Position numbers and translations under genes: made by a program. Shown piece after piece: positions 33,992-53,842 of a DNA stretch of 64,000 nucleotides; position 1 is the stretch's first letter; the number at the start of each line of letters is the position of its first letter. The stretch spans positions 16,745,264 through 16,809,263 of the forward strand of contig OZ038462.1 in the NCBI GenBank assembly GCA_964036295.1, read 5' to 3'. The notes beneath the pieces are model-generated. The model was not told the origin of the DNA. It saw only the letters and a list, made by a program, of their open reading frames with translations, and did not search any database. This DNA is from Plumapathes pennacea (taxonomy: Eukaryota; Cnidaria; Anthozoa; Antipatharia; Myriopathidae).

Positions 33992-34803
<812 letters not shown>

Positions 34804-34894: not shown

Positions 34895-34900
34895 CAGGTG
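34895..34900. repeat. Left target-site duplication of the Polinton
   Basis: CAGGTG, identical to 53837-53842. Confidence 0.92.
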
Positions 34901-35396: not shown

Positions 35397-35428
35397 GACG
35401 AGGACTAAAATTATGTCGTGGTGGTTTG

Positions 35429-35653: not shown

Positions 35654-35664
35654 TATATAATATG

Positions 35665-35853: not shown

Positions 35854-35897
35854 ATATAATATGTTTACTTAAGAAAAAATCTGTATTAATGGTATAG

Positions 35898-36470: not shown

Positions 36471-36982
36471 ATTTGGTTGTTCAGACGATGAAGTGTCAGT
36501 TGTTGTTTTATATTTTGCATCGTATATTTTAAACCATTTGTGAGGTGGAGGTGTAAGGTCAATACGTAAATCTTCCAAGAACGACATCTTTTTTATGATT
36601 GACTCTGTATTTATGTTTCCAAGACGAAGCGATTCTTTGATTTGATTGAGAAGATGTTCATACGATTGATAGACGTATTTACAATTTGCTATTTTGGATG
36701 ATAGGTTTTTTAATTTCATGATTGTTTGAATGCCGATTGAAATGCTTCCAACGACCAATAATATAATTCCTGATGTCGCTATGACTGAACTTACAGCGAT
36801 TCCAGCTACGACCCCAGACGAGACGTTCCCTGCAATATTTAACCTCTGATAATGCTTAAACATATGTTTATAAACGTAGCAAAGTCGATGACACGTTTTG
36901 TAATAGGCCATCATTTCATTGATATCGTTTTTTGAGACTTCGTTTGATATATGATTGAAAGTTACAGATTTTTTTTGCTCAT
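36462..36982 (-). CDS. Polinton membrane-hairpin protein (frame break near the start)
   Basis: Main open part (36462-36914) is 150 residues with a glycine-rich hydrophobic double segment (SSGVVAGIAVSSVIATSGII, then LLVVGSISIGI), followed by a charged helical C-terminus. The likely start is the ATG at 36982, which sits directly on the shared TATATATA motif. A run of eight A residues (36969-36976) separates it from the main frame by one base, so this copy has a one-base break or an assembly error. The hydrophobic hairpin is reminiscent of apolipoprotein-L-like proteins and of the protein at 59697. Function unknown; possibly membrane-associated. Confidence 0.55.
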
Positions 36983-36996
36983 ATATATACGGTAGA

Positions 36997-38049: not shown

Positions 38050-38066
38050 GTATATATTGGGTTACA

Positions 38067-39783: not shown

Positions 39784-39793
39784 ATATGATACG

Positions 39794-40960
39794 TTACATT
39801 CCTGGATATTCAATTTTGAGTGTTGTGAAACATCCACTTTTGCCATCGTGTATTTCTGCGGCAAAGTAAAGGTAGGCGTCTTTTTTTAATAACAATGGTA
39901 ATGTACGCACTTCGCCCCCCCCCCCCCCCCCATTCTCTAACAATAAAGGGTATTTGTTTACTATGTCTCTTGGCCCCCCCTCATAGGGTGGTATAAATCT
40001 TGATAGATGAATCGTTAAAGTGAATTTTTTCGAGAATCTATCGTCTAGGTTGCAAAAAGCCGACATTATCGCAATTGTGTCATCGTTTCCCAAGAACCTT
40101 ATCGCTGTGATGCCCCCAACATTAAAAGGCAAATAATATAAGTCTGTGCCATTCCAAAATTTTGTTTTGCGATTACTACCATTGAGCATTTGTGATTGAT
40201 TGATGAGGAATCTTAAGTTTTTGTATTCTAATCGCCCTGGGATCGTTTTGTAATTACTACTGTTGGTGAAGTTGAGTTGCGCATAATCAATTTGAGGGAT
40301 GTTTTGCAACATGGTGCGTACATTTGGAATGTAGTCAAGTTGGTCGTCAGTCGTTATTTTTCCAAGGTCGGTGATGGATACTGTGCTGGTAATTTTACCA
40401 ATAATTTGAATTTTTTTTGGATCTCCTAGTCCTATGATTTTTCTTACTCTCAATTTGTCGACACCGTTGAGTTCGTGTAAGTTGCAATTTAAGTCTTGCG
40501 TTAAACCTGTTTTTTCAATGTATTTAGACTTTACTTCATCGAAGATGTGTTTCATGATTGAAAGTACGTAGTTCGTTAAAGTGCAAAATGTTAATTTTAT
40601 ATTTAGTAAGATTGGAATGTTGTAGTCGTCGCGATGTGGTTTTAATTGAGGAATTTTAAATAATAAAGGGTTTGTGTGTTGATCGATCGCTATTGATGGA
40701 GGAGCGACTGGAGCTTTCGTCTTTGGTAAGTTTGTGAACTCCACGACTTGATTTCCATCAGAATGTTCTTCGACACTCATGTATTTACTCCCTTGATTGT
40801 AAAATTCAACGGCGGCATTCGATTTTCTTATATCGATTGAACTTGTGGGTGTTGAGTCGGCAAAACGCCCTGTTGCTTGTTCTATGATGGTTACGCCGCC
40901 CCCAATCAAAGAATCTTGATGATGAGAACGATTTTGATTAACCCCATTTATGTATCCCAT
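39794..40960 (-). CDS. Polinton fiber-like protein 3
   Basis: 388 residues. The N-terminus (MGYINGVNQNRSHHQDS) parallels that of fiber 2 (MGIINDSIEEN). A short shaft with SIDIRKSNAAVEFYNQGSKY is followed by LTQDLNCNLHELNGVDKL-type repeat text and a C-terminal beta-rich head that shares the (F/I)D.A.L.F..S entry motif and GNDDT(I/L).(I/F)M strand with fiber 2. A run of 17 G (39915-39931) lies in the head and encodes six glycines. The start lies on a TTATATG motif. Confidence 0.62.
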   Translation of the reverse strand: MGYINGVNQNRSHHQDSLIGGGVTIIEQATGRFADSTPTSSIDIRKSNAAVEFYNQGSKYMSVEEHSDGNQVVEFTNLPKTKAPVAPPSIAIDQHTNPLLFKIPQLKPHRDDYNIPILLNIKLTFCTLTNYVLSIMKHIFDEVKSKYIEKTGLTQDLNCNLHELNGVDKLRVRKIIGLGDPKKIQIIGKITSTVSITDLGKITTDDQLDYIPNVRTMLQNIPQIDYAQLNFTNSSNYKTIPGRLEYKNLRFLINQSQMLNGSNRKTKFWNGTDLYYLPFNVGGITAIRFLGNDDTIAIMSAFCNLDDRFSKKFTLTIHLSRFIPPYEGGPRDIVNKYPLLLENGGGGGGEVRTLPLLLKKDAYLYFAAEIHDGKSGCFTTLKIEYPGM

Positions 40961-40973
40961 ATAATTACGTTTT

Positions 40974-41678
40974 TTAGTGACGATGATTAGTGAAATAATC
41001 GACTATGAACTTTTCATTTTTGATCATGTTTTTCATCGATAACTTTCTGACGATTTCATAAAAACTCTTTCCTTTGTTCATTTCATTCATAAAATATAAA
41101 ACAAAATATCCACACAAAACACTGTTCAAATGATGATACTGACTTGAGTTGTAAAAATATGGCAATCCCATTTTTGCAGAAAGATTCAAAACTTGTAATG
41201 GTGGTTTCATGCCAAACGAGTCGAAATATAGAATTTTGTTGTTTTTGATGATCAGCAATACCCAATGAATACCATTTCCAATTTGATCGTCCAAATTTAT
41301 TACCCAAAATCCTTTTTTCATTTCATTTTTCATTTGATCTTTTGAAATCACACCGTTGAAGTTTTTAATTTTGAGGTATTTCACCCAATTGACAATATCG
41401 AAGTTACTGATTGGAATATTAACAAATTGTGGTTTTACATTATTGACCCAAGCATTGAATATACTGTCCTGTCGAATTTTCTTTTTGTTCTTGGAGTGTA
41501 GTAATCGCCCATCATGAGTCCGCGACCCTTTTTTGACGTTTTTTTTTTTCCTCCTCCACGAGGACAATTCCCGATAAATGGTGGCGGTCTCATGTATTGA
41601 TATGGAAGAACGAGTCCCCCTTCTTGATTTGGAATGACTAATCCTCCGTCTTGTGTTGAGACTCTTGGTTTTGGCCAA
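40974..41678 (-). CDS. Adenain-like maturation cysteine protease
   Basis: The C-terminal 150 residues form an adenovirus-type protease: catalytic His138 in GIHWVLL, Asp153 in YFDSFG, an oxyanion-type Gln about nine residues before Cys189 in SVLCGYF, in the family order His-Asp-Gln-Cys. Its job is to cleave structural precursors during capsid maturation. The domain starts near FVNIPISNFDIVNW with no suitable ATG or AT start motif. The frame is open upstream only as an overlap of 244 nt with the PX-like gene, in its -1 frame. It may therefore be made by frameshifting from that gene (slippery site at 41528-41534) or by internal initiation at 41678. Confidence 0.8.
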   Translation of the reverse strand: MAKTKSLNTRRRISHSKSRRGTRSSISIHETATIYRELSSWRRKKKNVKKGSRTHDGRLLHSKNKKKIRQDSIFNAWVNNVKPQFVNIPISNFDIVNWVKYLKIKNFNGVISKDQMKNEMKKGFWVINLDDQIGNGIHWVLLIIKNNKILYFDSFGMKPPLQVLNLSAKMGLPYFYNSSQYHHLNSVLCGYFVLYFMNEMNKGKSFYEIVRKLSMKNMIKNEKFIVDYFTNHRH

Positions 41679-42331
41679 GTGCGTCTTGGAGGAGATCTGG
41701 GAGTGTAACTTGGACGATTTTGCATGCCGTTTCCTGAGAATAATTCTGTCGTTCCAGCGATTGCAGCGGGGATCAACATCGATGCCAAGAGTGCACCGAG
41801 GAATCCGCCTCTTTGTGATTTCGTGGGCCTGAGAAATGCAGGAGTCATACTACTCATGGCATGCGCAATGTCTCTTTCTTGTTTGGGGGTTAATAGATGT
41901 TTGTAAGGAAGAATCTTGGAAAACGATTCAGGCATCAAAAATCCACCATTTTGGCCACCAAGGGCTTTATCTGTTGCTCGAGACGCCAATGAACTCATGA
42001 CACCACTCAGAAGTCCAGGAGCAGCTTTTTTTGCGCCACTTTTCAGCAATCTCGGTATCAACCTACGACCAGTTCTAAATAACATGCTTCCCCATCCTCC
42101 TCCAATTTTACGGACTCCTGTTTTGCTAATTTTAACATCAACACCAGTTCCAGTGCTCATTGCTTTTTGGATTCTTTTAATTTGCGACTTCGTGAGGTTC
42201 AACATATGATTCCCTGAAAGTTGATTATTCGCCAGTCGAAGTGTGATTGGCATTGATTTTTGAATTGCGTTTTGAAGTGAGCGCATTTGTCCATCGCTGA
42301 GACTTACGCCGTGAGAAAAGTAACTTGTCAT
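41435..42331 (-). CDS. PX-like minor virion protein (Gly-rich, basic)
   Basis: 298 residues starting on TAACATATG. N-terminal helical part with LSDGQMRSLQNAIQK and LTKSQIKRIQKA, then basic and Gly-rich segments (KIGGGWGSMLFRTGRRLIPR), a hydrophobic stretch GGFLGALLASMLIPAAIA near residue 180, and a Pro/Gly/Lys-rich tail. Polintons and adintoviruses carry such Gly-rich, basic, membrane-active or core proteins next to the protease; GG sites may be protease targets. The overlap with the protease ORF at the 3' end is discussed there. Confidence 0.6.
   Translation of the reverse strand: MTSYFSHGVSLSDGQMRSLQNAIQKSMPITLRLANNQLSGNHMLNLTKSQIKRIQKAMSTGTGVDVKISKTGVRKIGGGWGSMLFRTGRRLIPRLLKSGAKKAAPGLLSGVMSSLASRATDKALGGQNGGFLMPESFSKILPYKHLLTPKQERDIAHAMSSMTPAFLRPTKSQRGGFLGALLASMLIPAAIAGTTELFSGNGMQNRPSYTPRSPPRRTWPKPRVSTQDGGLVIPNQEGGLVLPYQYMRPPPFIGNCPRGGGKKKTSKKGRGLMMGDYYTPRTKRKFDRTVYSMLGSIM
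41528..41534 (-). promoter_or_regulatory. Candidate -1 ribosomal frameshift site, PX-like to protease
   Basis: In the zero frame of the PX-like gene the codons read TCA AAA AAG, giving the X XXY YYZ heptamer A AAA AAG. A one-base backward slip leads exactly into the protease frame. A second A-rich slippery run (A11, 41539-41549) lies 5 nt upstream. No convincing stem-loop was found downstream by eye. Confidence 0.4.
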
Positions 42332-42374
42332 ATGTTATACGTTATATAAGCGATATTTCTTTAATCACACACTT

Positions 42375-43727
42375 TTAGACACGCAATTTTGCTTTTCCTG
42401 AAGCTATGTCGATACTCACGTCTTTTTCGTACAAAATGAGAGCGAAAAACAAAATATCAGCATTTGGAACATCATTCAATGTATATGAAAACGTCAATTT
42501 TGGCATGGCAGATTTTAGTTCATTTTCTTGATTTCTTAGATCAAAATATAACATCCCATACAAATCTTGAAACGTTTTCAGATCAATGCTTGTCGAACTC
42601 AAATAGTCATTAAAACTTTTGTTGTACTGGAATACTTGTCGGAAAGTTTTGCTGATTTGAGTTGTTGGATTCATGTCGATTTGCGGATAAAATTCAGAAT
42701 TGCCAAGTTGCAACTGCGCTTTTGTAAATGTGCGATTGTTGGCCATGTTGTATGTGTTAAAGTGGAACATATTTTGTGTCTGATCGTTGAGCTTGCTGTT
42801 CAGAGTCCAAACGAAGACATGCTTTGGTTTTGAAATTCCTGTATCGATTCGCCAGGTTCCACTTTGTGAACGAATTGGTTCGGAACTCTCGACTTTTTCC
42901 ACCAAAAATGTCCAAGTGCGAGGTTTGAGGTATTGATCGGCGTACAAACTCAAACCTGTGCTGTTGAAAATTAATTTTGGCACCCAAAGACGCATCATTG
43001 TGACAACGTATCTTGATATTTCTGCGCCCTGTCTGAATATGAAATTATCGTCGTTTTCGAGATCTAGAGTAATGTTTATCAGACCATTAGGGGCTATCTG
43101 ATTTTTGAAACTTTTGAAGAAATTGTAACGGTTTAAAGGTATGATCACGTTGTTTATCGCAGCCGCCTCGAGCAATTTTTTACGTTTGGAGAAACCCTCG
43201 TTGTAATTTGGATTGACTGAATCTATCATGGCTCCTGCATCGTCGGCATTGTTTGCTGCATTTCTTCGATGGGTTACATGTCTTGTGAGATATTTTTGTG
43301 AACTCGCGTGTGTCGAAGTATCGAGGTAGTGAAAAGTTGCCGGACCTATTTTTCGGCCATATTCGTCGCTATAGTCAAGCAAATTTTTTACGTTGACAGC
43401 ATGGTTGCACCTTGGAATATTGATCAAATCATCACCTCCATACGATACGTTTATCTTATTTATCATAGCGTGCGCACCATTAATTGTTCCAACCTCGTTA
43501 ACTTGAGCATATCCTCCGCCGCCGTCTTTTTGCTCTACTTTAAAGCTAACCTCAATGTGGGAATTGAAAAGGTCAAAAGGAAAAGAGTCTGAGCTTGAAT
43601 CTACAGTAAATTTGTAGCCATTTTTTGCCTGAAATTGATCGTTGGCAGGCAATCTTATTACATTCTGTAATTCAAATGGAAAGTATTCATAACGTTTTAA
43701 AACATCCGGAGACCGAAAATTAGCCAT
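42375..43727 (-). CDS. Major capsid protein (double jelly roll)
   Basis: 450 residues, the usual length for Polinton MCPs. Begins near YEYFPFELQNVIRLPAND and contains SSDSFPFDLFNSHIEVSFK (first-strand region), GGDDLINIPRCNHAVNVKN, an inter-barrel FKNQIAPNGLINITLDLE block, WTFLVEKVESSEPIR, and a C-terminal LTFSYTLNDVPNADILFF strand pair. It forms pseudo-hexameric capsomers of the icosahedral shell. It lies next to penton-like and PX-like genes. Start directly on AATATTATAT then ATG. Confidence 0.9.
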   Translation of the reverse strand: MANFRSPDVLKRYEYFPFELQNVIRLPANDQFQAKNGYKFTVDSSSDSFPFDLFNSHIEVSFKVEQKDGGGGYAQVNEVGTINGAHAMINKINVSYGGDDLINIPRCNHAVNVKNLLDYSDEYGRKIGPATFHYLDTSTHASSQKYLTRHVTHRRNAANNADDAGAMIDSVNPNYNEGFSKRKKLLEAAAINNVIIPLNRYNFFKSFKNQIAPNGLINITLDLENDDNFIFRQGAEISRYVVTMMRLWVPKLIFNSTGLSLYADQYLKPRTWTFLVEKVESSEPIRSQSGTWRIDTGISKPKHVFVWTLNSKLNDQTQNMFHFNTYNMANNRTFTKAQLQLGNSEFYPQIDMNPTTQISKTFRQVFQYNKSFNDYLSSTSIDLKTFQDLYGMLYFDLRNQENELKSAMPKLTFSYTLNDVPNADILFFALILYEKDVSIDIASGKAKLRV

Positions 43728-43769
43728 ATATAATATTGTTTACATAAGCGAAGTTTGATACATCCAATG

Positions 43770-44186
43770 TTACATGTCTAATATTTCATCGAATTGAGAC
43801 GATATCGTGTTAGAGGGCTTTGTAGTGTTTTTTGAGTTTGAAAGTTTTTGCAATTCTTTGACGATTTGATCACCTTTTGTATTCGTCGTTTCAATTAATT
43901 GTTTAACGTCTTGTTTTGTTTCAGGTTGTTTGGCTTGTTTTTTTGACTTTTTTCCAAACTTGTCTTCGAGTTTGTCAGAAATCAAGTCTCCAGTTTTTTC
44001 TCCGATTTTCCGACTAGACACCTTTACACCTTCTTTTATGCCCTCCTCAAGTGCTTTTGCGGCTATCTTTTTCGCTGTCTCGCCTGTCACTTTTGCAAAT
44101 ACTTTTGAGGCGATGTCCCCCCATCCTGCACCATATTCTTCTTCATAAATGTAGTCACCAAATTCATCACGTTCACGTCTACTCAT
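43770..44186 (-). CDS. Small Lys/Ala-rich amphipathic virion protein candidate
   Basis: 138 residues from the ATG at 44186, which lies on the AT start motif; an earlier in-frame ATG at 44228 overlaps the penton gene and is less likely. The N-terminus RRERDEFGDYIYEEEYGAGWGD is followed by an amphipathic Ala/Lys helix (IASKVFAKVTGETAKKIAAK) and a highly charged tail. GWGD plus an amphipathic helix is also seen in the 46832 protein and suggests a membrane-active or core role like the small melittin-like/X proteins of adintoviruses. Lies between MCP and penton genes. Confidence 0.55.
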   Translation of the reverse strand: MSRRERDEFGDYIYEEEYGAGWGDIASKVFAKVTGETAKKIAAKALEEGIKEGVKVSSRKIGEKTGDLISDKLEDKFGKKSKKQAKQPETKQDVKQLIETTNTKGDQIVKELQKLSNSKNTTKPSNTISSQFDEILDM

Positions 44187-44224
44187 ATACAATAATCTAC
44201 ACAAACGTCGTTCATTCAATCGCT

Positions 44225-44995
44225 TCATCTTGGCACACTTCTAAGCAGTAAGTTCAAATTTATGGGCAAATTATTTAAATTTATATATCTTCCGATAGTG
44301 TCCGTCAAATAAATACGAATTTCTTTTATCGTCGTAGTATTCAATTTATTGAACGACAAATGGATTGGCTCTTGGTGAAAAGGAAACGTGAGAGGCAAAT
44401 TATCGACATTCACAAAAAACAAGACGTCCCCATGGCCTCCCGAATCAATGGTGTTTGAGAGTATAGAACATCGCAAAAGAAGTGCATCTACGTCACGAGT
44501 TATGTTAGGTATTATCTCACTGAATGATGTCGCAGTCAATATTCTTGGATTAAAACCAACTAATTTATGAAATTCACCTTCCGATAAATCCACTTGATAA
44601 TTGTCTTTGAGTGTAAATAAACTTTGAAAAACTGCTTTGTCGAAACTTAATTGAATTCCAGCTTTGTCCTTATTTATAGCATCGCCGTTGGCTCGAATGA
44701 CATAATCTATATAATCATTGAGGTCACGATAACTATAATTCCCGTTTGGGGACCTTATCTCTTTCCAATTTGCCCCGTTGTCTTTGGAGTATTTTATGGT
44801 GTGATTGTTGTATTCTTCAGCCACGTTGTACCATGAATATGACATGTCGAGAATCCTAAGGGCTATCAGATGATCCATATTTTCTTGCAATCTGATTGGA
44901 TCGTCAAATCTGACAACAAAATCGTGACTTGGTCCTATTCCATCGACTGATTGTATCGTAATTGGCGTATCATAATTTTGACTAGTGTCGCTCAT
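44225..44995 (-). CDS. Penton-like minor capsid protein (single jelly roll)
   Basis: 256 residues. Starts with TPITIQSVDGIGPSHDFVVRF and PIRLQENMDHLIALRILDMSYSW, followed by alternating beta segments, LLLRCSILSNT and a C-terminal IRIYLTDTIGRYINLNNLPI. This pattern and length match the Polinton/adintovirus penton protein that forms fivefold vertices and would anchor the fiber-like proteins encoded downstream. Start directly on TATAATATAT then ATG. Confidence 0.82.
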   Translation of the reverse strand: MSDTSQNYDTPITIQSVDGIGPSHDFVVRFDDPIRLQENMDHLIALRILDMSYSWYNVAEEYNNHTIKYSKDNGANWKEIRSPNGNYSYRDLNDYIDYVIRANGDAINKDKAGIQLSFDKAVFQSLFTLKDNYQVDLSEGEFHKLVGFNPRILTATSFSEIIPNITRDVDALLLRCSILSNTIDSGGHGDVLFFVNVDNLPLTFPFHQEPIHLSFNKLNTTTIKEIRIYLTDTIGRYINLNNLPINLNLLLRSVPR

Positions 44996-45033
44996 ATATA
45001 TTATACCTTACATTAAAAAATCGAGTTGAAAAG

Positions 45034-46098
45034 TTATGTCAAGAATTTATTGACGTAAGCATCGTGTTGTTCTTTCGATATTTCGCCACTTTTATGGAGA
45101 TGATCGATTATTTGCCATATTTCATTACGAATTTGTAAATTATTGTTTCCTGCGGCCCTTGTTCCAGTCAAAAGTTTCAATCTTTTTATCAAATCTTCAG
45201 GTTTTGAATAATAAACGTTGCCAGACCCTAACTTACTTTTTCCAGAGCTTCTATGAATTGGTAAATTTCCCAACACGTTTAAATTGTTAAAAACTTGTCG
45301 TGCCACTGAACTGTAACGTTTCTTTGGATCAAATCTCTTCGTCAACAAATCAATCAAACTTCTGTCGGCGTGGTTTTCGTATATTTTTCGCCCATCTTTC
45401 GAGGCTTCGACAACCATTTCGTTCATTAAACGTGGGACATTGATTATCAACCCACCATAATTTCCACCTTTGCTCACCTTATATGCATGACGTTTTGGTT
45501 GCTTGTAATTTCGTGTTCCAGAGCCAGTCGTCGTGTATGATCTACTTGGCAAGACTCCTTTTTGTCTCAAGTGTTGTTTAATCGTAATAACGCCACGCAA
45601 CACGTCAGAAATTTTTGTGAGCGCCTGAATTTGAAACGTTTTTTGTTTGCTGTTTTTTTGTTTCTTCTTGTTTTTTATCATATTCAAGACACCTTCGCGC
45701 ATTTGCGTCAGTCCTTCTACGTTAAAGTCACTCAACTTTCGAACGTCAATACCAATGGCCATCAAATATTCAAGTTCTTCGGCCATAAACATTTCCAAAA
45801 AGTCATTCATGTCGATGTCAAGATTTTTATTCAACCGTTCAACGATCGCCTCTTGATTTTCTTCCAACTTTCCAATCAACGCGTCTTGTCGCTCGTCAAT
45901 TCCTTTTTTGTCTTCATCGCGCAATTCTCTTTGAACTTTTTCTTGCATTCGAACAAGAGGTTTAAAAGCCTGTTCCCCAAAAATATCCCTGTCAATTGCG
46001 CGATTTCGTTCTGCGGAAATTTCTTCCGAAATTGGGCGAATAATATCGTGAGCCTTTTTCTCTCTCAAAGCCAAACGTCTTATTTCATCAACTTCCAT
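45034..46098 (-). CDS. Conserved Polinton protein of unknown function (coiled coil)
   Basis: 354 residues. The N-terminal half is charged and helical (KKAHDIIRPISEEISAERNR; ERQDALIGKLEENQEAIVER). The C-terminal half has a GGNYGGLIINVPRLMNEM block, a (K)IYENHADRSLIDLLTKRFD block and YSSVARQVFNNLNVLGNLPI, which look strongly conserved in type though I cannot name a family. Its place between penton and packaging ATPase suggests a virion or assembly role. Divergent from the ATPase with 86 bp between, AT motif at the start. Confidence 0.65.
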   Translation of the reverse strand: MEVDEIRRLALREKKAHDIIRPISEEISAERNRAIDRDIFGEQAFKPLVRMQEKVQRELRDEDKKGIDERQDALIGKLEENQEAIVERLNKNLDIDMNDFLEMFMAEELEYLMAIGIDVRKLSDFNVEGLTQMREGVLNMIKNKKKQKNSKQKTFQIQALTKISDVLRGVITIKQHLRQKGVLPSRSYTTTGSGTRNYKQPKRHAYKVSKGGNYGGLIINVPRLMNEMVVEASKDGRKIYENHADRSLIDLLTKRFDPKKRYSSVARQVFNNLNVLGNLPIHRSSGKSKLGSGNVYYSKPEDLIKRLKLLTGTRAAGNNNLQIRNEIWQIIDHLHKSGEISKEQHDAYVNKFLT

Positions 46099-46184
46099 AT
46101 ATACTTAAGTTACATAACACTATTAATCAACTATTTAACTTTCAAACGACACTTAACTCTTCAACTTGTGTAACTTAATGTATA
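46099..46184. promoter_or_regulatory. Divergent promoter region of the Polinton
   Basis: 86 bp between the leftward structural genes and the rightward genes. Both edges carry the element's motif: TTATGTAACTTAAGTATAT before the minus-strand ATG at 46098, and TTGTGTAACTTAATGTATA before the plus-strand ATG at 46185. The GTGTAACTTAA/ATGTAACTTAA cores form an inverted pair, consistent with a bidirectional promoter. Confidence 0.6.
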
Positions 46185-46820
46185 ATGAAAATACCAAATT
46201 ATGACACATACAGCACGAAAACACATGACAAGAGAGTGGTACCATTTCTTCCTGAAGACTTTCGAATGCTTATTTGTGGACAATCGGGATGTGGAAAAAC
46301 AAATACTCTGATGCATATGTTACGAAATCCATTAGTCTACTACGACGAATGTTTTATTTATACACCCAATTTTCATCAAGACAAAATACAAGACCTTATG
46401 AAGTTTATGAATGGTATTTCACGTAAAGTTGGATACGACGTTTTAAACGTCCTTGGCGAAGATGATATAAAAGACACTTGCGAGTACCCTCACAATAACA
46501 GAAAGATCGTTGTTTTTGATGATCTCGTGAATGCTCCAGAACGTGTGCAGGGGAAGATTGCAAATCATTTTACTGATGGACGTCACCGTGGGATCTCGCC
46601 AATTTACCTATCGCAAAGCTTCTACGACGTACCAAGTAAATTACGACAAAATTGTAGTCACATGATATTGTACCCTCCAAATTCAAAAACTCACTTCAAC
46701 CTGATATCAAAAGAAAATGGTGTAATGCCCGAATTATTCAACAAATTAAAACCATATGAATTCTTATTCCTTGATAAAGTCAAGAAAACGTGCAAAAAAA
46801 ACTTTAATGAGGTTGTCTAA
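46185..46820 (+). CDS. FtsK/HerA-type genome-packaging ATPase
   Basis: 211 residues. Walker A GQSGCGKT at 32-39, Walker B KIVVFDDL with acidic residues 112-113, followed by a HFTDGRHRGISPIYLSQSF region (sensor and arginine-finger-like positions). Typical size and motif spacing for the A32-like packaging ATPases of Polintons, which pump DNA into preformed capsids. First gene of the rightward group. Confidence 0.9.
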   Translation: MKIPNYDTYSTKTHDKRVVPFLPEDFRMLICGQSGCGKTNTLMHMLRNPLVYYDECFIYTPNFHQDKIQDLMKFMNGISRKVGYDVLNVLGEDDIKDTCEYPHNNRKIVVFDDLVNAPERVQGKIANHFTDGRHRGISPIYLSQSFYDVPSKLRQNCSHMILYPPNSKTHFNLISKENGVMPELFNKLKPYEFLFLDKVKKTCKKNFNEVV

Positions 46821-46831
46821 CGTATGTATAT

Positions 46832-47194
46832 ATGGTTACATCGTATTGTGTAAAAGAAAGACGTCAAACTGAATGTGCCCCTGGGTCTGAAAAATACGTT
46901 ACAGCAAGAAATGGAAGGATGATGATGAAATGCGTTTGTGCATCTTGTGGAGCAACGAAAAGTCGATTTGTGAAGGCATCCAAAGGCATGACAGGCGGCA
47001 TAGGCTGGGGGGACGCACTTTTCCACGCAAGCGCACAGGCTGCCAAAAGAATATTAAAACATAGCTCCAAACAAGCTTTGGAAAGTGACTATTTGCGTAA
47101 TTTTGCAAAAACCAAAGCCAAAAATTTCGTTGGAAGTCTCATCAATCGAAGTCGACGATATCACACAAAGACTTGCCGACAGATTATAATCTAA
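46832..47194 (+). CDS. Zinc-ribbon protein with amphipathic (melittin-like) tail
   Basis: 120 residues. N-terminal module SYCVKERRQTE ... NGRMMMKCVCASCGATKSRF is a zinc-ribbon-like fold shared with the next gene. Then GGIGWGDALFHASAQAAKRI and further amphipathic basic helix sequence. Adintoviruses are known to encode a small melittin-like membrane-active protein near the ATPase, and this fits in place and composition. The first zinc pair has only one Cys (CVKE instead of CVKC). Starts on GTATATATG. Confidence 0.6.
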   Translation: MVTSYCVKERRQTECAPGSEKYVTARNGRMMMKCVCASCGATKSRFVKASKGMTGGIGWGDALFHASAQAAKRILKHSSKQALESDYLRNFAKTKAKNFVGSLINRSRRYHTKTCRQIII

Positions 47195-47204
47195 GCAATA
47201 ATAT

Positions 47205-47726
47205 ATGTTGAGTTACTGCGTGAAATGCAAATCTAAAACTCAAGGTCACGACGAAAACGTGAAGATAACAAAGAATGGTAAAAAAATGATTAATTCAAGG
47301 TGTACAATTTGTAGTTGCCATAAGTGTTGTTTCGTAAGCAATAAAGAAGGAGGAAAACTCAAATTCGACATTCACGCGGCCATTGGTAAACTCCCAAAAC
47401 CAAGAACAGGATTCACGCCATCGAAATATAAATATTTGGGTCCATACAATCCATTAGAAAAACAATTAGAATACGACAAAGAAACAGGACAGGTGACAAA
47501 ATGGCATGTACAACCATACAACAAAGTGGACGAAATTGCCGCACGTCATGATATTTGTTACGATCGTGGGGTCGACAAACATGGTTGTGATAAAAAAATG
47601 GTGAATTCGTTAGATCAAATTCCTTACGGCGAAATACCAAAATGGGGGCAAACTGCACGATTCTTAATCGACAAAAAAAGAAAACTTGGACTTGGAAATG
47701 TATCAAAAAACGGAAAACGGCGTTGA
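47205..47726 (+). CDS. Zinc-ribbon protein with parvovirus-type phospholipase A2 domain
   Basis: 173 residues. N-terminal zinc-ribbon-like module (SYCVKCKSKTQ ... CTICSCHKCCF) paralogous to the previous gene. The PLA2 domain is at about 72-125: YLGPYNPL as calcium loop (77-84) and HDICYD as catalytic His115-Asp116 with Tyr119. Parvovirus VP1 and adintovirus PLA2 domains breach endosomal membranes during entry, so this is probably a virion protein. The loop has Tyr81 where the usual YxGxG has Gly. Its last codons overlap the integrase ORF, with a slippery heptamer at 47705-47711. Confidence 0.75.
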   Translation: MLSYCVKCKSKTQGHDENVKITKNGKKMINSRCTICSCHKCCFVSNKEGGKLKFDIHAAIGKLPKPRTGFTPSKYKYLGPYNPLEKQLEYDKETGQVTKWHVQPYNKVDEIAARHDICYDRGVDKHGCDKKMVNSLDQIPYGEIPKWGQTARFLIDKKRKLGLGNVSKNGKRR

Positions 47727-48703
47727 GTGACGATTGGGCTCAACAATTGGCCGATGAACTTCATAAACCAATCAAGCGAAATTTTTTGAAGCGAAAAGTG
47801 ATTGTGAATTACGCCGACGAAATATGGGCTGCAGATTTAGTCGACATGCAAAAATTAAGCAAGTGGAATAAAGGTTATAAGTATCTATTGATGGTGATCG
47901 ACCTATTTTCAAAGTATGGATGGATTCGACCTCTAAAAAACAAGAAAGGCGAAACTGTCGCAACCGCATTCAAATCCATTTTAAATGAGGGTAGAAAGCC
48001 AAAATATTTATGGACAGACAAAGGCACAGAGTTTTACAATCAGCACTTCGAAGAGTTGTTGAATAAGTGTAACATCACGTTATATTCAACAGAAAATGAA
48101 GAAAAATCACCGGTTGTCGAAAGATGGAACAGAACAATGAAAAATAAAATGTGGAAACAATTCACGGCACAAAACAACACACAATATGTAAATTTGCTTC
48201 CGAAACTTGTCGATGAATACAACAATACGGTTCACTCAAGTATAAAGTTAACACCTATTCAAGCGTCAAAAAAGTTAAACAAAGGTATTGTATTTGCAAA
48301 TTTATTCGACGAAAAAAGACTCATGGCGCTTCCGAAATCTAAATTTAAAGTCGGAGACAAAGTTAGAATTTCTAAATACAAACGAAGGTTTTTTGATAAA
48401 TTTTATACGGAAAATTGGAGTGAAGAAGTGTTTAAAATTAAAATCGTTTTGTCAACAAACCCAATAACTTATAGAATTGAGGATTTAAATGGCGAGGAAA
48501 TACAAGGTTCTTTCTATGAACAGGAACTTCAAAAAACCAAACAAGATGTGTTCAGAGTTGAAAAGATCATAAGGAAAAACAAAAAGAACAACACAGCATT
48601 AGTAAAATGGAGAGGCTATAGTAATGATTTCAATTCATGGATGCCACTTGGCGACTTGAAAAACGTCTTGAAAAAGTCTCACGGCGTGAGAAAAACCAAC
48701 TAG
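47642..48703 (+). CDS. Retroviral-type integrase with C-terminal chromodomain
   Basis: 353 codons open from the ATG at 47642. The catalytic core has Asp65 (WAADLVDM), Asp126 (LWTDKGTEF) and Glu160 (SPVVERWNRT), i.e. a D,D-x33-E triad. A C-terminal chromodomain (FRVEKIIRKNKKN, VKWRGYSNDFNSWMP, from about residue 304) is typical of Polinton integrases and Chromoviridae and may direct insertion to chromatin marks. It integrates the linear element DNA at 6-bp staggered sites. No AT start motif precedes it. The first 28 codons overlap the PLA2 gene in the -1 frame, so expression may be by frameshift. Confidence 0.92.
   Translation: MGANCTILNRQKKKTWTWKCIKKRKTALSDDWAQQLADELHKPIKRNFLKRKVIVNYADEIWAADLVDMQKLSKWNKGYKYLLMVIDLFSKYGWIRPLKNKKGETVATAFKSILNEGRKPKYLWTDKGTEFYNQHFEELLNKCNITLYSTENEEKSPVVERWNRTMKNKMWKQFTAQNNTQYVNLLPKLVDEYNNTVHSSIKLTPIQASKKLNKGIVFANLFDEKRLMALPKSKFKVGDKVRISKYKRRFFDKFYTENWSEEVFKIKIVLSTNPITYRIEDLNGEEIQGSFYEQELQKTKQDVFRVEKIIRKNKKNNTALVKWRGYSNDFNSWMPLGDLKNVLKKSHGVRKTN
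47705..47744 (+). promoter_or_regulatory. Candidate -1 ribosomal frameshift signal, PLA2 to integrase
   Basis: Zero-frame codons TCA AAA AAC give the canonical heptamer A AAA AAC (47705-47711). Slipping back one base enters the integrase frame at 47711. Ten nucleotides further, GTTGAG (47722-47727) pairs with CTCAAC (47739-47744) around an 11-nt loop, and the PLA2 stop codon TGA (47724-47726) lies inside that stem. Heptamer, spacer and stem are arranged as in known -1 frameshift sites, although the stem is short. Confidence 0.5.
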
Positions 48704-48752
48704 ACGCTGCTCCAAAAAAGTTATTACACGACGTGTCTCATGCCATGAGACA
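48677..48752 (+). repeat. Two palindromic hairpins at the integrase 3' end
   Basis: TCTCACGGCGTGAGA (48677-48691, within the last integrase codons) and TGTCTCATGCCATGAGACA (48734-48752, after the stop). Both are perfect arms around one base with core CTCA(C/T)GNC(G/A)TGAG. They may mark transcript 3' ends. Confidence 0.6.
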
Positions 48753-48804
48753 ACACGTGCGTTCATGAAATTATTTAAAAATATATAGTAATAGTATAGT
48801 TATA

Positions 48805-49110
48805 ATGCCAAGACCAAAAATTTACGACGACGAAGAAAGATATAAAAAAATGAGAGAAAGCAAAAATAAATATATGAGGAAAACAAAATGGAAATGTCAT
48901 TGCTGTGAAATTGAAATTCCATACAATCAAAAAACAAATCATTGTAGAACAAAAAAGCATCAAAACGTGTCAAAAAAAATTGTCAACACGCTCGACACCA
49001 TTCTAGAAAACGAAAATCATAACGAGCAGACGCGCGAATCGTTAGAAAATGCAATAAGTAGTGTAAAACAAAATATCAAAACAAAACCACTTAAAGAAGT
49101 GCGTTTATAA
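48805..49110 (+). CDS. Small zinc-finger protein of the Polinton
   Basis: 101 residues. Basic start MPRPKIYDDEERYKKMRE, then a matrin/U1-type zinc finger: CHCC with Cys-x2-Cys, followed by NHCRTKKH providing His-x5-His-like ligands; the C-terminus is helical and charged. RPKIYxxEERxKxxR N-termini plus one such finger recur in small proteins of many DNA viruses, and a nucleic-acid-binding role is likely. Preceded by AT-rich TATAGTTATA. Confidence 0.6.
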   Translation: MPRPKIYDDEERYKKMRESKNKYMRKTKWKCHCCEIEIPYNQKTNHCRTKKHQNVSKKIVNTLDTILENENHNEQTRESLENAISSVKQNIKTKPLKEVRL

Positions 49111-49143
49111 TAGGATTATAATATATATAGTTAATATATATAG

Positions 49144-49293
49144 ATGAGTGAAAAAATTACGTTGGAATTAGGCGACGGAAAAAGTGATTTAAATAATCTT
49201 TCTAAAAGTGAATTGATAAAAATTATAAAAAAGTATAAAAAGAAGGTTAAAAAACTTAAAAAAAAGAAGGCACAAAAACTGACAAAATGTTGA
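49144..49293 (+). CDS. 49-residue lysine-rich leader ORF overlapping the polymerase start
   Basis: Begins behind the TTAATATATATAG motif, so it has the element's promoter where the polymerase has none. Short helical Lys-rich protein (LSKSELIKIIKKYKKK). Its stop TGA (49291-49293) overlaps the polymerase ATG region (ATGTTGA), an arrangement suited to termination-reinitiation. No family recognised. Confidence 0.55.
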   Translation: MSEKITLELGDGKSDLNNLSKSELIKIIKKYKKKVKKLKKKKAQKLTKC

Positions 49294-52200
49294 AAAGGCT
49301 AGAAGATGCAAAGTCATTGAAAAAAAGAGACGACATCAAGATTCACTCAATTGATAGAAAATATGCATTCATGAACATAAAGCCACGAACGATGAAACCA
49401 ATTCCACAAGTCAGAACAAAAATAACACCATTACAAAAAGCTCTCAAAAATTTCACAGAGAGTTTTGAAACTAGTATTAAAAATAAAAAAGATCCATTAA
49501 TTCAACTTCAATCAACGCGATTAGCAATAAAAAATTTCGCGTTAGAAAAAAACTTAAACGAAATGAAGGGTTTGAAATATGTTGAAACATTAAAAGTAGA
49601 ATTCTTTAAAGAAGCAAAAGACAACGTGATTCAAAAAAGTGCCTTCTTCAATAGCAAGACTGAAACGATCATAAGCGTTAATGAAATTCTAAAGTCGTTA
49701 AACTTTTCAATGGCGCAAATCCTCGGAAAAATAGCGATTTGGATTTCTGAAGGTTCAGGTTGGAGAATAAAAAACGTTGAATCACATCATATAAACATCA
49801 TCAAATATAAGCCACTAAAAGGTAGTTCATACATAAAATTACCACGTGAATTGAAAAACGGAAAAAAAGGCTTAATCAACATTAAAAACGACGACAATGA
49901 ATGTTTTAGATGGTGCCACGTGCGTTTATTAAATCCACAAGAAAAAGATTCACAACGAATAAAAAAAAGTGATAAGAAACTAGTTGAAAAACTAAACTAC
50001 AAAGGAATAAACTTTCCAGTTCAACAAAAAGATTACAATAAAATTGAAAAGCAAAACGATATTAACATAAGCGTATTTGGTTATGAAAATAAAGAAACTT
50101 TTCCAATCCACGTCTCGAAAGAAAAGTTTGAAAAACAAATGAACTTATTATTAATAATTGAAGGTGAAAACAATCATTACGTGTTGATCAAAAACTTCGA
50201 TCGATTCATGTACAACAAATCAAAGCATGAACACAAAAAGCACTTCTGTATGTATTGTCTTCAATGTTTCTCTAGTGAAAGAGTCTTAAAAGAACACAAA
50301 CAAAACTGTATCGTGATTAATGGTCAACAAGCAATAAAAATGCCTGAAAAGGGTTCGTTCATTAAATTCAAAAACTATCACAAGCAACTACCAGTTCCAT
50401 TTGTGATTTATGCCGACTTTGAAGCAATTACTGAGAAAATTCATGGATGTCGCCAAAATGATGATGAATCTTACACTGAGGCATATCAAAAACACACTGA
50501 TTGCGGGTTCGCTTACAAAGTTGTTTGTTGTTACGACGATAAATTTAGCAAACCATTAGTTTTGTATAGAGGAGAAAATGTAGTATATAAGTTCATCAAA
50601 TCAATTTTAGAAGAAGAAAAGTGGTGTGAAAAAATGATGAAAGAAAAGTGTAATGAGGAAATGATCTTGAACGACGAAGACGAAAAAGACTTCAAAGAAT
50701 CCAAAAATTGTCATATTTGCGAAAGAAAATACAAAGAAAAAGACGTCAGAGTCCAAGATCATTGCCACATCACAGGCAAATATCGTGGATCAGCTCATCA
50801 ATGTTGTAATTTGAGTTTTAAACTAACGAAGAAAATCCCAGTTATTTTCCACAACTTGCGTGGTTATGATAGTCACTTCATAATGCAAGAAATTGGTAAA
50901 TTCAAAAAAACAATCAATGTGATTCCAAATAATATGGAAAAATACATGGCTTTCATGCTTGGGCAAAATCTGGTCTTCATTGATAGTCTTCAGTTTTTGA
51001 ATTCAAGTCTTGAAAAATTAGTCAATAATCTATCTAAAGAATGCTTCAAGTACACGAAACAAGAATTCGAAGAAAACCTTGAAATTATGACTAAAAAGGG
51101 TGTATATCCATATGACTTCATGAGCAGTTTTGAAAAATTTAAAGAAAAACAACTTCCATCAAAAGACGATTTTTTTAGCATTTTAAACGATGAGCACATC
51201 TCCAATCAACAATACGAACACGCGCAAAATGTATGGAAAACCTTTAAATTGAAAAACATGGGTGAATATCATGATTTATATCTCAAAAGTGACGTTTTGT
51301 TGCTTGCAGATGTATTTGAAAGCTTTAGAAGCACATGTTTGAAGTATTACAAGTTAGACCCATGTCATTACTTCACAAGCCCAGGATTAAGTTGGGATGC
51401 AATGTTAAGAATGACTAAAATCAAACTGGAGCTAATGAGTGATCTTGATATGCATTTGTTCATTGAAAAAGGGCTGCGTGGTGGTATTTCGTATATCGCA
51501 AATCGTTTTTCAAAAGCAAACAACAAATACATGAAAAACTACAATAAAGACGAAAAATCAAAATTTATTAGTTATTTAGACGCTAATAATCTATATGGAT
51601 GGGCAATGTCACAAAGTCTACCAACAAGTAACTTCAAATGGTTAAGAAATGAAGAAGTAGACAAATTAGACTTAGCAAAATATGATGACAATAGCAAAAG
51701 TGGAATAGTATTAGAAGTTGATCTTGAATACTCAAAAAAATTACACGATCTTCACAATGATTATCCACTCACGCCAGAAAAAATAAAATTAGAAAAAAGT
51801 ATGTTGTCAAATTATTGCAAAAAAATTCAAGATAAATACAACATTAGCGTCGGTCAAGTCCAAAAATTAATACCAACACTAAGCGATAAAGAAAAGTATG
51901 TTTTACACTACAAAAATTTGCAATTATACATGGACTTAGGATTAAAAGTAACAAAGGTTCATCGTGTTTTAGAATTTAATCAATCGCCATGGTTAAAAAA
52001 ATACATCGACTTCAACACTGAAAAAAGAAAACAAGCTAAAAATCCATTTGTAAAAGACTTCTTTAAATTAATGAACAATTCAGTTTATGGAAAAACAATG
52101 GAGAATATTAGAAAAAGAGTCAACGTAAAATTAGTCACAAATGAAAAAGACTTATTGAAATGGTCATCAAAACCTACATTCGTTTCTAGTAAAATATTCA

Positions 52201-52835
52201 GTGAAAATTTAGTCGCAGTGCATAAAATTAAAGAAGTATTAACATTAAACAGGCCAACTTATGTAGGAATGTGTATTTTAGATCTCTCAAAAACACTAAT
52301 GTACGACTTTCACTATAACTACATTAAAAATAAATACAAAAGCAAAGCAAAACTGCTTTTCACAGATACCGATTCACTTTGTTATGAAATACAAACAAAA
52401 GACATTTACGAGGACATTTGGAAAGACAAAAGTAAATTCGATTTTAGTGACTACCCAAAAGATTCAAAATATCATGACGAAACCAACAAAAAGGTGATTG
52501 GAAAATTCAAAGACGAAACGTGTGGTACTCCAATTTGTGAGTTCGTTGGATTGAAAAGTAAAATGTATTCATATCTAAAAGAGACAAACGAAGAATCAAA
52601 AACCGCAAAGGGAATTAAAAAAAACATTATCAAAAACGTCATTCATCACGAAAACTACAAAAACGTGCTCTTAAAAGGGCAACAAATCTGTCACAAAATG
52701 AAAACAATTCGTAGTGATCATCATCAATTAGGTTCCTACGATATAAACAAGATAAGTTTAAGTTGTTTTGACGATAAAAGATATATTTTAAAGGATGGAA
52801 TTCATAGTTATGCGTATGGACATTATAAAATTTAG
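49287..52835 (+). CDS. Protein-primed family B DNA polymerase (pPolB)
   Basis: 1182 residues. The N-terminal third of unknown fold contains a Cys/His finger (FCMYCLQCF, from Cys321). 3'-5' exonuclease: Exo I Asp377/Glu379 (YADFEA), Exo II Asp528 (GYDSHF), Exo III Asp669 (YLKSDVLLLAD). Between Exo I and II an endonuclease-VII/HNH-like zinc module, Cys475-x2-Cys478 to Cys507 (DHCHITGKYRG). Polymerase: motif A Asp765 (YLDANNLYGW), motif B Lys927 to Gly935 (KLMNNSVYG), motif C Asp1027-Thr-Asp1029 (FTDTDS). All key residues are present. It replicates the linear element from the inverted-repeat termini using a protein primer. The start overlaps the 49-residue leader ORF. Confidence 0.95.
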   Translation: MLKRLEDAKSLKKRDDIKIHSIDRKYAFMNIKPRTMKPIPQVRTKITPLQKALKNFTESFETSIKNKKDPLIQLQSTRLAIKNFALEKNLNEMKGLKYVETLKVEFFKEAKDNVIQKSAFFNSKTETIISVNEILKSLNFSMAQILGKIAIWISEGSGWRIKNVESHHINIIKYKPLKGSSYIKLPRELKNGKKGLINIKNDDNECFRWCHVRLLNPQEKDSQRIKKSDKKLVEKLNYKGINFPVQQKDYNKIEKQNDINISVFGYENKETFPIHVSKEKFEKQMNLLLIIEGENNHYVLIKNFDRFMYNKSKHEHKKHFCMYCLQCFSSERVLKEHKQNCIVINGQQAIKMPEKGSFIKFKNYHKQLPVPFVIYADFEAITEKIHGCRQNDDESYTEAYQKHTDCGFAYKVVCCYDDKFSKPLVLYRGENVVYKFIKSILEEEKWCEKMMKEKCNEEMILNDEDEKDFKESKNCHICERKYKEKDVRVQDHCHITGKYRGSAHQCCNLSFKLTKKIPVIFHNLRGYDSHFIMQEIGKFKKTINVIPNNMEKYMAFMLGQNLVFIDSLQFLNSSLEKLVNNLSKECFKYTKQEFEENLEIMTKKGVYPYDFMSSFEKFKEKQLPSKDDFFSILNDEHISNQQYEHAQNVWKTFKLKNMGEYHDLYLKSDVLLLADVFESFRSTCLKYYKLDPCHYFTSPGLSWDAMLRMTKIKLELMSDLDMHLFIEKGLRGGISYIANRFSKANNKYMKNYNKDEKSKFISYLDANNLYGWAMSQSLPTSNFKWLRNEEVDKLDLAKYDDNSKSGIVLEVDLEYSKKLHDLHNDYPLTPEKIKLEKSMLSNYCKKIQDKYNISVGQVQKLIPTLSDKEKYVLHYKNLQLYMDLGLKVTKVHRVLEFNQSPWLKKYIDFNTEKRKQAKNPFVKDFFKLMNNSVYGKTMENIRKRVNVKLVTNEKDLLKWSSKPTFVSSKIFSENLVAVHKIKEVLTLNRPTYVGMCILDLSKTLMYDFHYNYIKNKYKSKAKLLFTDTDSLCYEIQTKDIYEDIWKDKSKFDFSDYPKDSKYHDETNKKVIGKFKDETCGTPICEFVGLKSKMYSYLKETNEESKTAKGIKKNIIKNVIHHENYKNVLLKGQQICHKMKTIRSDHHQLGSYDINKISLSCFDDKRYILKDGIHSYAYGHYKI

Positions 52836-52861
52836 ACGTAATATGTAACGTTAATATATAC

Positions 52862-53212
52862 ATGGACTACTACACGAAAATTAAATTATTTTGTGACTAC
52901 ATCTTCAACCACCTTTCAAATAAAAAATCTACTTATGAACTTCAAAAAATAATTGACGAAAAAGACATTGAAATCTACGATTTAAAAATTTGTTGTGCCA
53001 AAAAAGAAAGAAAAATACAAGAATTATACAACGAATTAACGCATCTTCACCAAGAATATTGCAACGTCGAAATGGATTTAAAAGACGTTCATAAAAACAA
53101 CTTAAGATTAATTGAAAAACTTGAAGAAGAAAAAGGAAAACACATTTGCATTGAACAAAAAATCAAAGAAAAAAACATCGACTTACAAAATTTCGTTAGT
53201 AAATTATTTTAA
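52862..53212 (+). CDS. Small coiled-coil protein (unknown)
   Basis: 116 residues, almost entirely charged helix (KKERKIQELYNELTHLHQEY, RLIEKLEEEKGK). Start on GTTAATATATAC then ATG, 26 bp after the polymerase stop. Location downstream of the polymerase is compatible with a replication accessory protein, but this is inference. Confidence 0.55.
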   Translation: MDYYTKIKLFCDYIFNHLSNKKSTYELQKIIDEKDIEIYDLKICCAKKERKIQELYNELTHLHQEYCNVEMDLKDVHKNNLRLIEKLEEEKGKHICIEQKIKEKNIDLQNFVSKLF

Positions 53213-53225
53213 AACGCTAATATAT

Positions 53226-53447
53226 ATGGAAGAAATAATCATACCTATAAAACGAGAAAACATTGTTTCAAAATATTATTTGGAAAATTTAATCATGATT
53301 TTTGTGTTTAAAGAACCATTTGTAAAACCATCATCTTACAAAAACGACAATATTTATTTCAACGCGTTTTTAAATCACATACGAAATTACACAACACGAA
53401 AAACGTCTCTTCAATTGTGTTCAAGCGCGTGTGCAAGACAGTGTTAG
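53226..53447 (+). CDS. Small protein whose C-terminus is encoded in the terminal repeat (unknown)
   Basis: 73 residues from the ATG at 53226, directly on GCTAATATAT. N-terminus MEEIIIPIKRENIVSKYYLE is regular protein-like. The last ~31 codons lie inside the right inverted repeat and end in a Cys-rich SSACARQC. No family recognised. Confidence 0.5.
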   Translation: MEEIIIPIKRENIVSKYYLENLIMIFVFKEPFVKPSSYKNDNIYFNAFLNHIRNYTTRKTSLQLCSSACARQC

Positions 53448-53836
53448 TGTCATTTACGAGTTGAAATTTGTGAATAATATAGTGATTGCAGAGTGGATGA
53501 AATAGCGTAACCGTCAAAAGCTATAAGCGCAATTTTTAAGCAACTAAATTATTTAACCAATCTATATGTTTTAAAAAAAATTTAAATCATATGGTGCCTC
53601 ATTTTTCAATTCTATATGTTTTTTAAAAAATTTAAGTGCGTTTGCAAAAATAAAAATCACTAAAAACTGTGCTGTAAGTAGAGTCGTTTTTTAATGGTAT
53701 ATGTTGTGTTGCAGAGGCGGTGCAAGTGTAACAAATCAAAAAGCTAAGAGCACAGTTTTTTAGCAACTTAATTTATGCCATATTTTGATGAAAATGCGCT
53801 GTAAAGTGCGCTAGAACCGCCAACTCCTATACTACT
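53353..53836. repeat. Right terminal inverted repeat of the Polinton (484 bp)
   Basis: Inverted copy of 34901-35396. Its inner 95 bp also encode the C-terminal end of the small gene at 53226-53447. Confidence 0.92.
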
Positions 53837-53842
53837 CAGGTG
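53837..53842. repeat. Right target-site duplication of the Polinton
   Basis: CAGGTG, identical to 34895-34900. Confidence 0.92.

Follow-up and report, generated by a model that had tools for sequence, protein, structure and literature searches.

How does a transposable element produce an integrase whose gene appears to lack a start of its own? The question is raised by a 64,000-nucleotide stretch of the Plumapathes pennacea genome (Cnidaria, Anthozoa, Antipatharia; assembly GCA_964036295.1, contig OZ038462.1, positions 16,745,264 to 16,809,263 of the forward strand), which we refer to as the window and number from its first letter. The window holds an 18.9-kb Polinton, in which a gene for a phospholipase A2-like (PLA2) protein is overlapped at its 3′ end by the open reading frame (ORF) of the integrase, lying in the −1 frame. 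Our comparison of the copies of this junction makes it likely that a programmed −1 ribosomal frameshift near the end of the PLA2 gene produces a PLA2–integrase fusion beside free PLA2; that the slippage is ribosomal, as well as its efficiency, we infer. As part of the same explanation, and equally likely, selection would maintain no separate start codon for the integrase.

Direct reading of the sequence and of its ORFs confirmed the central elements of the junction, as an earlier sequence-only reading of the window had described them (Table 1). The heptamer A AAA AAC stands in register within the PLA2 codons TCA AAA AAC, the integrase lies at −1, and every coordinate given for the 10-nt spacer and for the stem enclosing the PLA2 stop, with its core pairing of GTTGAG (47722–47727) with CTCAAC (47739–47744), proved to be correct. 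The description of this signal as canonical applies to the heptamer; in the window the spacer is on the long side and the stem on the weak side. The PLA2 ORF contains the Pfam domains DUF5679 (PF18930, 1.6e-7) and Phospholip_A2_4 (PF08398, 1.1e-7), and the motifs YxGPxNPL and HDxxY can be recognised in it by eye; a sequence search of known structures with PLA2 returned as its only match a tRNA synthetase at E 0.88. The integrase frame encodes an rve domain (~47816–48085; PF00665, 2.8e-10) followed by a chromodomain (~48551–48667; PF00385, 2.6e-7). In-register heptamers of the form X XXY YYZ are found at 66 of the 5020 codons (1.3%) of the Polinton's ORFs and in-register A AAA AAC at 11 (0.22%), giving a chance expectation within the 44-codon overlap of ~0.6 and ~0.1, respectively. 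Because slippery heptamers are this frequent in register in the A-rich Polinton, the heptamer in one copy alone is weak evidence, and it is conservation across copies that carries the claim.

Table 1. Positions in the window of the Polinton, of the PLA2–integrase junction and of the virion protein–protease pair
Feature	Position	Strand	Basis or remark
Polinton element, 18.9 kb	34901..53836	.	422-nt terminal inverted repeats and target-site duplication
Protease ORF	40974-41849	minus	
Virion protein ORF	41435-42334	minus	
PLA2-like protein gene	47205..47726	+	ORF; frame 0; ATG 47205, stop TGA 47724-47726
Integrase frame, open between stops; −1 relative to PLA2	47594..48703	+	ORF and Pfam
ATG in integrase frame, the only one ahead of the catalytic core	47642..47644	+	probably not the start
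Slippery heptamer A AAA AAC	47705..47711	+	in register; PLA2 codons TCA AAA AAC
Spacer, 10 nt	47712..47721	+	
Stem 1, 5′ arm GTTGAG(T), contains PLA2 stop	47722..47728	+	two-sided change in L017/L020
Proposed stem 2, 5′ arm GATTGG	47732..47737	+	pairing proposal
Stem 1, 3′ arm (G)CTCAAC	47738..47744	+	pairing
Proposed stem 2, 3′ arm CCAATC	47768..47773	+	codons CCA, ATC unchanged in 18/18 copies
First integrase-frame AUG past the heptamer (Met of WAADLVDM)	47846..47848	+	

When the 290-Mb assembly to which the window belongs was searched in six frames, 111 integrase matches were obtained, the best 30 of which came with loci; for PLA2 a search of the same assembly yielded 32 matches, 30 of them with loci. 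We examined 22 copies belonging to the window's clade (L001–L020, L047 and L049, where L001 is the window's own copy); counts out of 19 refer below to L001–L018 and L020, and those out of 18 to L001–L017 and L020. The integrase lies at −1 in 20 of the 22. The sequence-only reading had looked to relatives lacking the heptamer to overturn it; within this genome TCA AAA AAC, with the heptamer in register, is present in 19 of 19 copies, and the neighbouring bases vary on both sides. The truncated copy L047 reads ACA AAA AAT, which is still of the form X XXY YYZ, and has its integrase at −1. Two copies depart from this offset: L019 has seven A's and its two frames in line, and the decayed L049 has a different offset. 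At the level of the integrase, L018 and L019 show only 64% identity. From the heptamer to the end of the PLA2 stop the distance is 15 nt in 18 copies, whereas L018 has 21 nt. From the heptamer onward the integrase frame is open for 302–333 amino acids in 18 of the 19 copies and for 127 in L020, and it begins merely 27–45 nt ahead of the heptamer in 12 of the 19. PLA2 is uninterrupted (ATG to stop, 168 amino acids or more) in 11 of these copies.

The claim that the integrase has no start motif of its own had to be qualified, as its frame in the window does contain an ATG, at 47642; the start motif was inspected by eye only. Across the clade, however, this qualification concerns few copies: four (L001, L010, L011 and L018) have an AUG in the stretch from the preceding stop to the catalytic core and 15 of 19 have none, which argues against an integrase made from its own ATG, and 8 of the 11 copies with an uninterrupted PLA2 are among those without one. 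Where the early AUG is missing, the first AUG is that of WAADLVDM or a later one, behind the presumed first catalytic Asp, and a start at 47846 would lose this residue because the AUG follows it. The Asp is invariant in an alignment of 28 proteins, and its catalytic role is one that we take from general knowledge of rve integrases. With the four named copies excepted, the downstream frame is open, under protein selection and without a start of its own.

Comparison of the 18 copies located the point at which selection changes frame. As far as 47704 it is the third positions of PLA2 codons that vary most, and from 47727 those of integrase codons. For the bases ahead of the heptamer, the ratio of nonsynonymous to synonymous differences (pN/pS) amounts to 0.33 when they are read in the PLA2 frame but to 1.37 when they are read in the integrase frame; for the integrase frame it is 0.23 between the PLA2 stop and the core and 0.21 within the core. 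The best change point of the selected frame falls at 47703–47713, tied with 47730–47731. Taken together, these results indicate that coding switches frame at the heptamer or at most ~20 bases later, and therefore that ATG 47642 is not the family's functional start.

A second lineage of the same genome (L022, L026 and L028), whose integrase is ~40% identical to that of the window, also has its integrase at −1. Here the PLA2 frame reads ELHKPVKK, the usual start of the integrase motif, into a run of ten A's (A10), past which the motif resumes in the −1 frame (I.PRRQ.), and no AUG is found ahead of the core in any of the three copies. The ratio of nonsynonymous to synonymous substitution rates (dN/dS) of the integrase is 0.17–0.22 among them, at dS 0.63–1.07. 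Slippage at the A10 run could be by the ribosome or by RNA polymerase. L055 belongs to this lineage too, but in it a single frame runs as far as the core; the decayed copies L021, L057 and L060 were not counted either way. L019 and L055 are thus copies with PLA2 and integrase in one frame inside lineages that are otherwise at −1, so that the family moves between a shifted and a single-ORF fusion. Other integrase lineages of the genome are represented by L023, L024, L025, L027, L029 and L030, for which no PLA2 match was found in the 1.5 kb upstream of the integrase.

Proteins from elsewhere support the fusion as such. Of 6597 integrase relatives we considered the best 120, and of 1105 PLA2-only relatives the 120 listed. 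Among the best 120 integrase relatives 41 are longer than 400 amino acids, and 39 of the 41 match PLA2 as well as integrase in one ORF. P0044 (469 amino acids) and P0012 (488 amino acids) have PLA2, rve and chromodomain in one ORF, with DUF5679 also present in P0012 (above the cut-off) and in P0044 (just below it). Given so many single-ORF relatives, the fusion is a normal product of the family and compatible with the element's life; for the same reason, fusion as such is not special to frameshifting. The proposal of a PLA2–integrase fusion by a −1 shift therefore gains from the conserved heptamer, from the lack of an AUG in most copies and from the single-ORF relatives, but it has to be amended in two respects, namely that frameshifting is only one route to the fusion and that the stimulator may exceed a short stem. 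In P0012 the match to the integrase frame (KKRKTALS) starts at 47705. Otherwise the BLAST alignments of the window's PLA2 and integrase with the fusions have ragged ends, with integrase starts from 47600 to 47771 (median 47648), and hence do not locate the switch point except in single cases like P0012.

The PLA2-only relatives bear on the heptamer itself. KN stands at its place in 88 of the 120 listed proteins, which are not mutually independent, and is missing from the other 32; in 87 of the 88 the residue preceding K (S, Q, P, T and others) is one that a codon ending in A can encode, against a background of 72% of residues. Since KN in one frame together with KKR in the other fixes the DNA as A AAA AAC, the heptamer can be predicted for other species from proteins, their PLA2 and integrase being unpaired by contig. 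Short relatives often begin with MSEEENWQ where the fused ones read LSEEENWQ; such starts look like TTG calls of the bacterial type, and the relatives were probably called without introns. The coral Oculina patagonica is the only name given among the listed relatives.

As for the RNA downstream of the slip site, the sequences make a stimulator likely in the family. In L018 and L019 an 11-bp stem, GCCGUCGAG(U/C)A : U(A/G)CUCGACGGC, lies 7 nt past the slip run and includes a covarying pair (U-A/C-G). None of 2000 synonymous shuffles of L018 was as stable as this stem, and the fold z is −3.3 and −2.6 for the two copies on 100 nt, which is not seen on 60 nt, where the stem cannot form. In the window the short stem may not be the whole stimulator, since GATTGG in the loop of stem 1 can pair with CCAATC to give a possible H-type pseudoknot with a third loop of 23 nt; at the energy cut used, it forms in 16 of the 18 copies. 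Invariant synonymous codons are more frequent near the site (10 of 15) than beyond it (22 of 98, p 0.001) in the window's clade, taking codons present in at least 15 of the 18 copies, which omits near the site the Q at 47741 (14 copies). When single-frame codons only are counted, 6 of 10 are invariant (p 0.018). The invariant codons include GAT, CCA and ATC of the proposed stem 2. Stem 1 has a two-sided change, from G-C to A-U, in L017 and L020, which may represent one event since both copies look alike there; a stem as good arose within 40 nt in 81 of 2000 synonymous shuffles of the window. A long-range stem, CGGCGT:ACGCCG (loop 87), scores slightly above stem 1 in the window and was not used because it is not among the five best for L002, L004, L011, L012, L014 and L016.

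Several observations weigh against a frameshift at the heptamer, and we bring them together in this and the following two paragraphs. The window's copy itself carries the in-frame AUG at 47642, and the bootstrap of the change point spans 47697–47731, within which a slip at the heptamer and an event at the stop are inseparable. On the structural side, the window's spacer exceeds the 6–9 nt given as typical in PMC3835772, and the junction fold is weak there (z −0.96 on 41 nt and −0.91 on 110 nt). The pseudoknot was matched in 30 of 2000 synonymous shuffles and fails to form in L017 and L020 at the energy cut used. Positions 47712–47726 are read in two frames, so that conservation there need not mean RNA structure. 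L019 is now single-frame and does not need its 11-bp stem for a shift, while six folds of the A10 lineage (three copies, 60 and 100 nt) gave no outstanding structure past the A run (z −0.75 to 0.87). Finally, viral and prokaryote genome collections yielded no DNA of the relatives, 56 and 71 pattern matches being left unconfirmed by tblastn, and for want of such DNA from outside this genome the wider claim rests on proteins.

A further complication is found within PLA2. An 18-nt insert beginning with UGA occupies the calcium-loop region, between YMG and PYNPL, in 8 of the 19 copies, ~93 codons ahead of the slip site. Six of them (L003, L004, L005, L010, L014 and L020) have the UGA in the reading frame of the heptamer, and their inserts take three forms, UGA being followed by CLC, CIR or YSC; in L008 and L017 the insert is present and the frame is broken elsewhere. 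PLA2 is also interrupted in L008, L017 and L020. An in-frame UGA should block the fusion, yet the integrase is equally constrained: in the six UGA copies versus eight without, pN/pS is 0.19 versus 0.21 for the downstream part of PLA2 and 0.17 versus 0.15 for the integrase. Either the UGA is read through, or the fusion is unneeded in those copies, or the selection predates the UGA. Readthrough or selenocysteine insertion is a possible reading of the insert; no selenocysteine insertion sequence (SECIS) or other Rfam family was detected at the gathering cut-off in L003, L005, L010, L014 or the window.

The virion protein–protease pair of the same Polinton is another complication. In all 12 copies of it (L061–L072) the protease frame is −1 relative to that in which the virion protein ends; nine have no AUG at the switch, and L069–L071 have TGATG. 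A run of 9–15 A's lies ~100 nt before the virion protein stop, A AAA AAA being in register in all 12, and the virion protein match itself changes frame in five (L062, L064, L067, L069 and L072). The selected frame of this pair switches at the stop, with the nearest slip run ~100 nt upstream, and another mechanism may therefore exist in the Polinton. We do not adopt slippage by −1 at this A run as the explanation for the protease, because constraint stays in the upstream frame until the stop; with the run in register in all 12 copies, such slippage nevertheless keeps some plausibility. A common stop-linked mechanism could conceivably serve both gene pairs.

Applied to the PLA2–integrase junction, such an event would be either initiation coupled to termination, from the non-AUG codon UUG at 47723 (the same in 18 of 18 copies), or some other stop-linked −1 shift. 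The protease pair, with its switch at the stop, and the change-point bootstrap, which includes the stop, both speak for it, but it would leave unexplained the invariant in-register heptamer and the A AAA AAT of L047, the A10 lineage, in which the integrase motif continues across the A run, and the start at 47705 of the KKRKTALS match to P0012, a single-ORF protein; we consider it quite improbable. Slippage by RNA polymerase rather than by ribosomes, which would appear as altered A-run length in transcripts, is unlikely as well. From general knowledge, the A10 run of L022, L026 and L028 is long enough for it, but the window's clade has just six A's followed by C, and the possible RNA stem of L018 and L019, with its covarying pair, fits ribosomes better. 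It is very improbable that the integrase starts independently at ATG 47642 within PLA2, be it by overlapping genes, leaky scanning or a transcript of its own. The ATG does exist, and 14 of the 120 listed integrase relatives are overlap-like, 11 of the 14 beginning with Met-Gly as here, with starts that were probably set by the gene caller. However, an AUG ahead of the core is found in only 4 of 19 copies and in none of the three of the A10 lineage, ATG 47642 follows from the TGG-GGN codons of PLA2, the integrase frame has the pN/pS of 1.37 upstream of the heptamer, and a change point at 47642 scores 40.5 versus 44.5 at 47703–47713.

Two further explanations deserve very little credence. In one, PLA2 and integrase were ancestrally a single ORF, and the offset arose when a simple frameshift mutation broke it. 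This would be in keeping with single-ORF fusions being common in relatives, with L019 and L055 being in one frame and with the indel-broken appearance of L021, L057, L060 and L049, but not with an offset shared at this heptamer by 20 of 22 copies, with integrase pN/pS of ~0.2 over 18 of them, nor with the A10 offset that L022, L026 and L028 share over dS 0.63–1.07 at dN/dS of ~0.2. In the other, the frame would be restored in the RNA, through an intron or through processing of another kind; with PLA2-phase constraint extending to 47704 and integrase-phase constraint from 47727, ~22 nt are left for an intron.

In the preferred reading, a programmed −1 ribosomal frameshift, ribosomes on the PLA2 gene would reach A AAA AAC, where RNA structure immediately beyond it (a weak stem in the window, with a possible pseudoknot) would slow them. 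A fraction would slip back one base, miss the PLA2 stop 15 nt later and go on to translate integrase and chromodomain. Most ribosomes would thus make free PLA2 and some the PLA2–integrase fusion. Our preferred guess is that the PLA2 part would tether the integrase to the particle or to a membrane, and that the integrase would enter the next cell with the genome, at a low ratio, as in Gag-Pol. The tethering, the status of the fusion as a minor product and its carriage into the capsid on an entry protein, as the sequence-only reading had put it, are likewise conjectural. Tentatively, and with more doubt than conviction, this may be extended to a group of double-stranded DNA (dsDNA) virus-like transposons with a Gag-Pol-like strategy, in which the integrase would be made only as a fusion to a virion PLA2, by −1 frameshifting (at least two slip sites in one genome) or in a single ORF, and the particle would deliver it attached to a membrane-breaching protein at a ratio set by slippage.

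An integrase made only as a PLA2 fusion would point to particle delivery, which bears on how Polintons bring their integrase to the next genome and on whether they still make particles. If true, the frameshift would also define a junction peptide that can be searched for, account for an integrase gene that gene callers split, truncate or start wrongly, and make programmed −1 frameshifting central to a eukaryotic dsDNA element. The natural variants A6C, A6T, A10 and single ORF can be compared directly.

The element has the hallmarks of a Polinton/Maverick: inverted-repeat ends of the AGT type, a 6-bp duplication and an rve integrase with a C-terminal chromodomain. The ends, AGTAGT/ACTACT, were trimmed by eye from flanking sequence, and the target-site duplication CAGGTG lies at 34895–34900 and 53837–53842. 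Since the terminal inverted repeats are perfectly matched (100% complementary over 422 nt), the insertion appears to be recent. A packaging ATPase is recognised by Pox_A32 above the Pfam cut-off; the ORF at 49260–52835 has PolB-like motifs by eye, and Pfam gave for it only a sub-threshold endonuclease VII match. The protease ORF has a weak C48 Pfam match below the cut-off, and the capsid candidate ORF at 42378–43736 was without a match in the Pfam search. Directly upstream of the PLA2 gene, at 46811–47194, lies a second DUF5679 gene, perhaps a duplication of the N-terminal part of the PLA2 gene. Beside the left end of the element, at 34645–34816, dense overlapping inverted repeats of 64–86 nt are probably a simple-sequence tract.

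Programmed −1 frameshifting is well known in RNA viruses, retroelements and bacterial insertion sequences. The proposed PLA2–integrase fusion resembles retroviral gag-pro and gag-pol in the heptamer, in a possible downstream stem or pseudoknot and in an upstream structural protein to which enzymes are appended; in other retroviruses, readthrough of a stop codon serves the same purpose. Unlike in retroviruses, the upstream protein is PLA2-like and not Gag, the element is of the dsDNA type with no reverse transcriptase seen, the structure in the window is weaker, and packaging of the fusion is hypothetical. Parvovirus VP1 carries PLA2 as part of the capsid protein. The Phospholip_A2_4 domain is shared with the Polinton PLA2, which in the Polinton is followed by the integrase instead of belonging to a capsid protein; a figure legend explains PLA2 as the phospholipase A2 domain of the parvovirus capsid protein (PMC3671162). 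A AAA AAC ranks with the heptamers at which mammalian ribosomes shift most readily (PMC5009743), and AAAAAAC is listed as the shift site of mouse mammary tumour virus (MMTV), bovine leukaemia virus (BLV), human T-cell leukaemia virus type I (HTLV-I) and equine infectious anaemia virus (EIAV) (PMC3835772). The IS3 family and other bacterial insertion sequences differ in employing bacterial ribosomes and slip sites (PMC5009743). No report of PLA2–integrase frameshifting was found in the literature searched, among it passages of PMC11071296, PMC12567637, PMC8097293, PMC3671162, PMC12721341 and PMC10120064; this left subscription papers and most preprints uncovered. For adintoviruses, which belong to the same broad virus group, programmed −1 frameshifts have likewise been proposed computationally, using KnotInFrame, at the 3′ end of Penton and for Hexon-Adenain; these are other genes, and PLA2–integrase is not named as a frameshift pair in the available part of that paper (PMC11071296).

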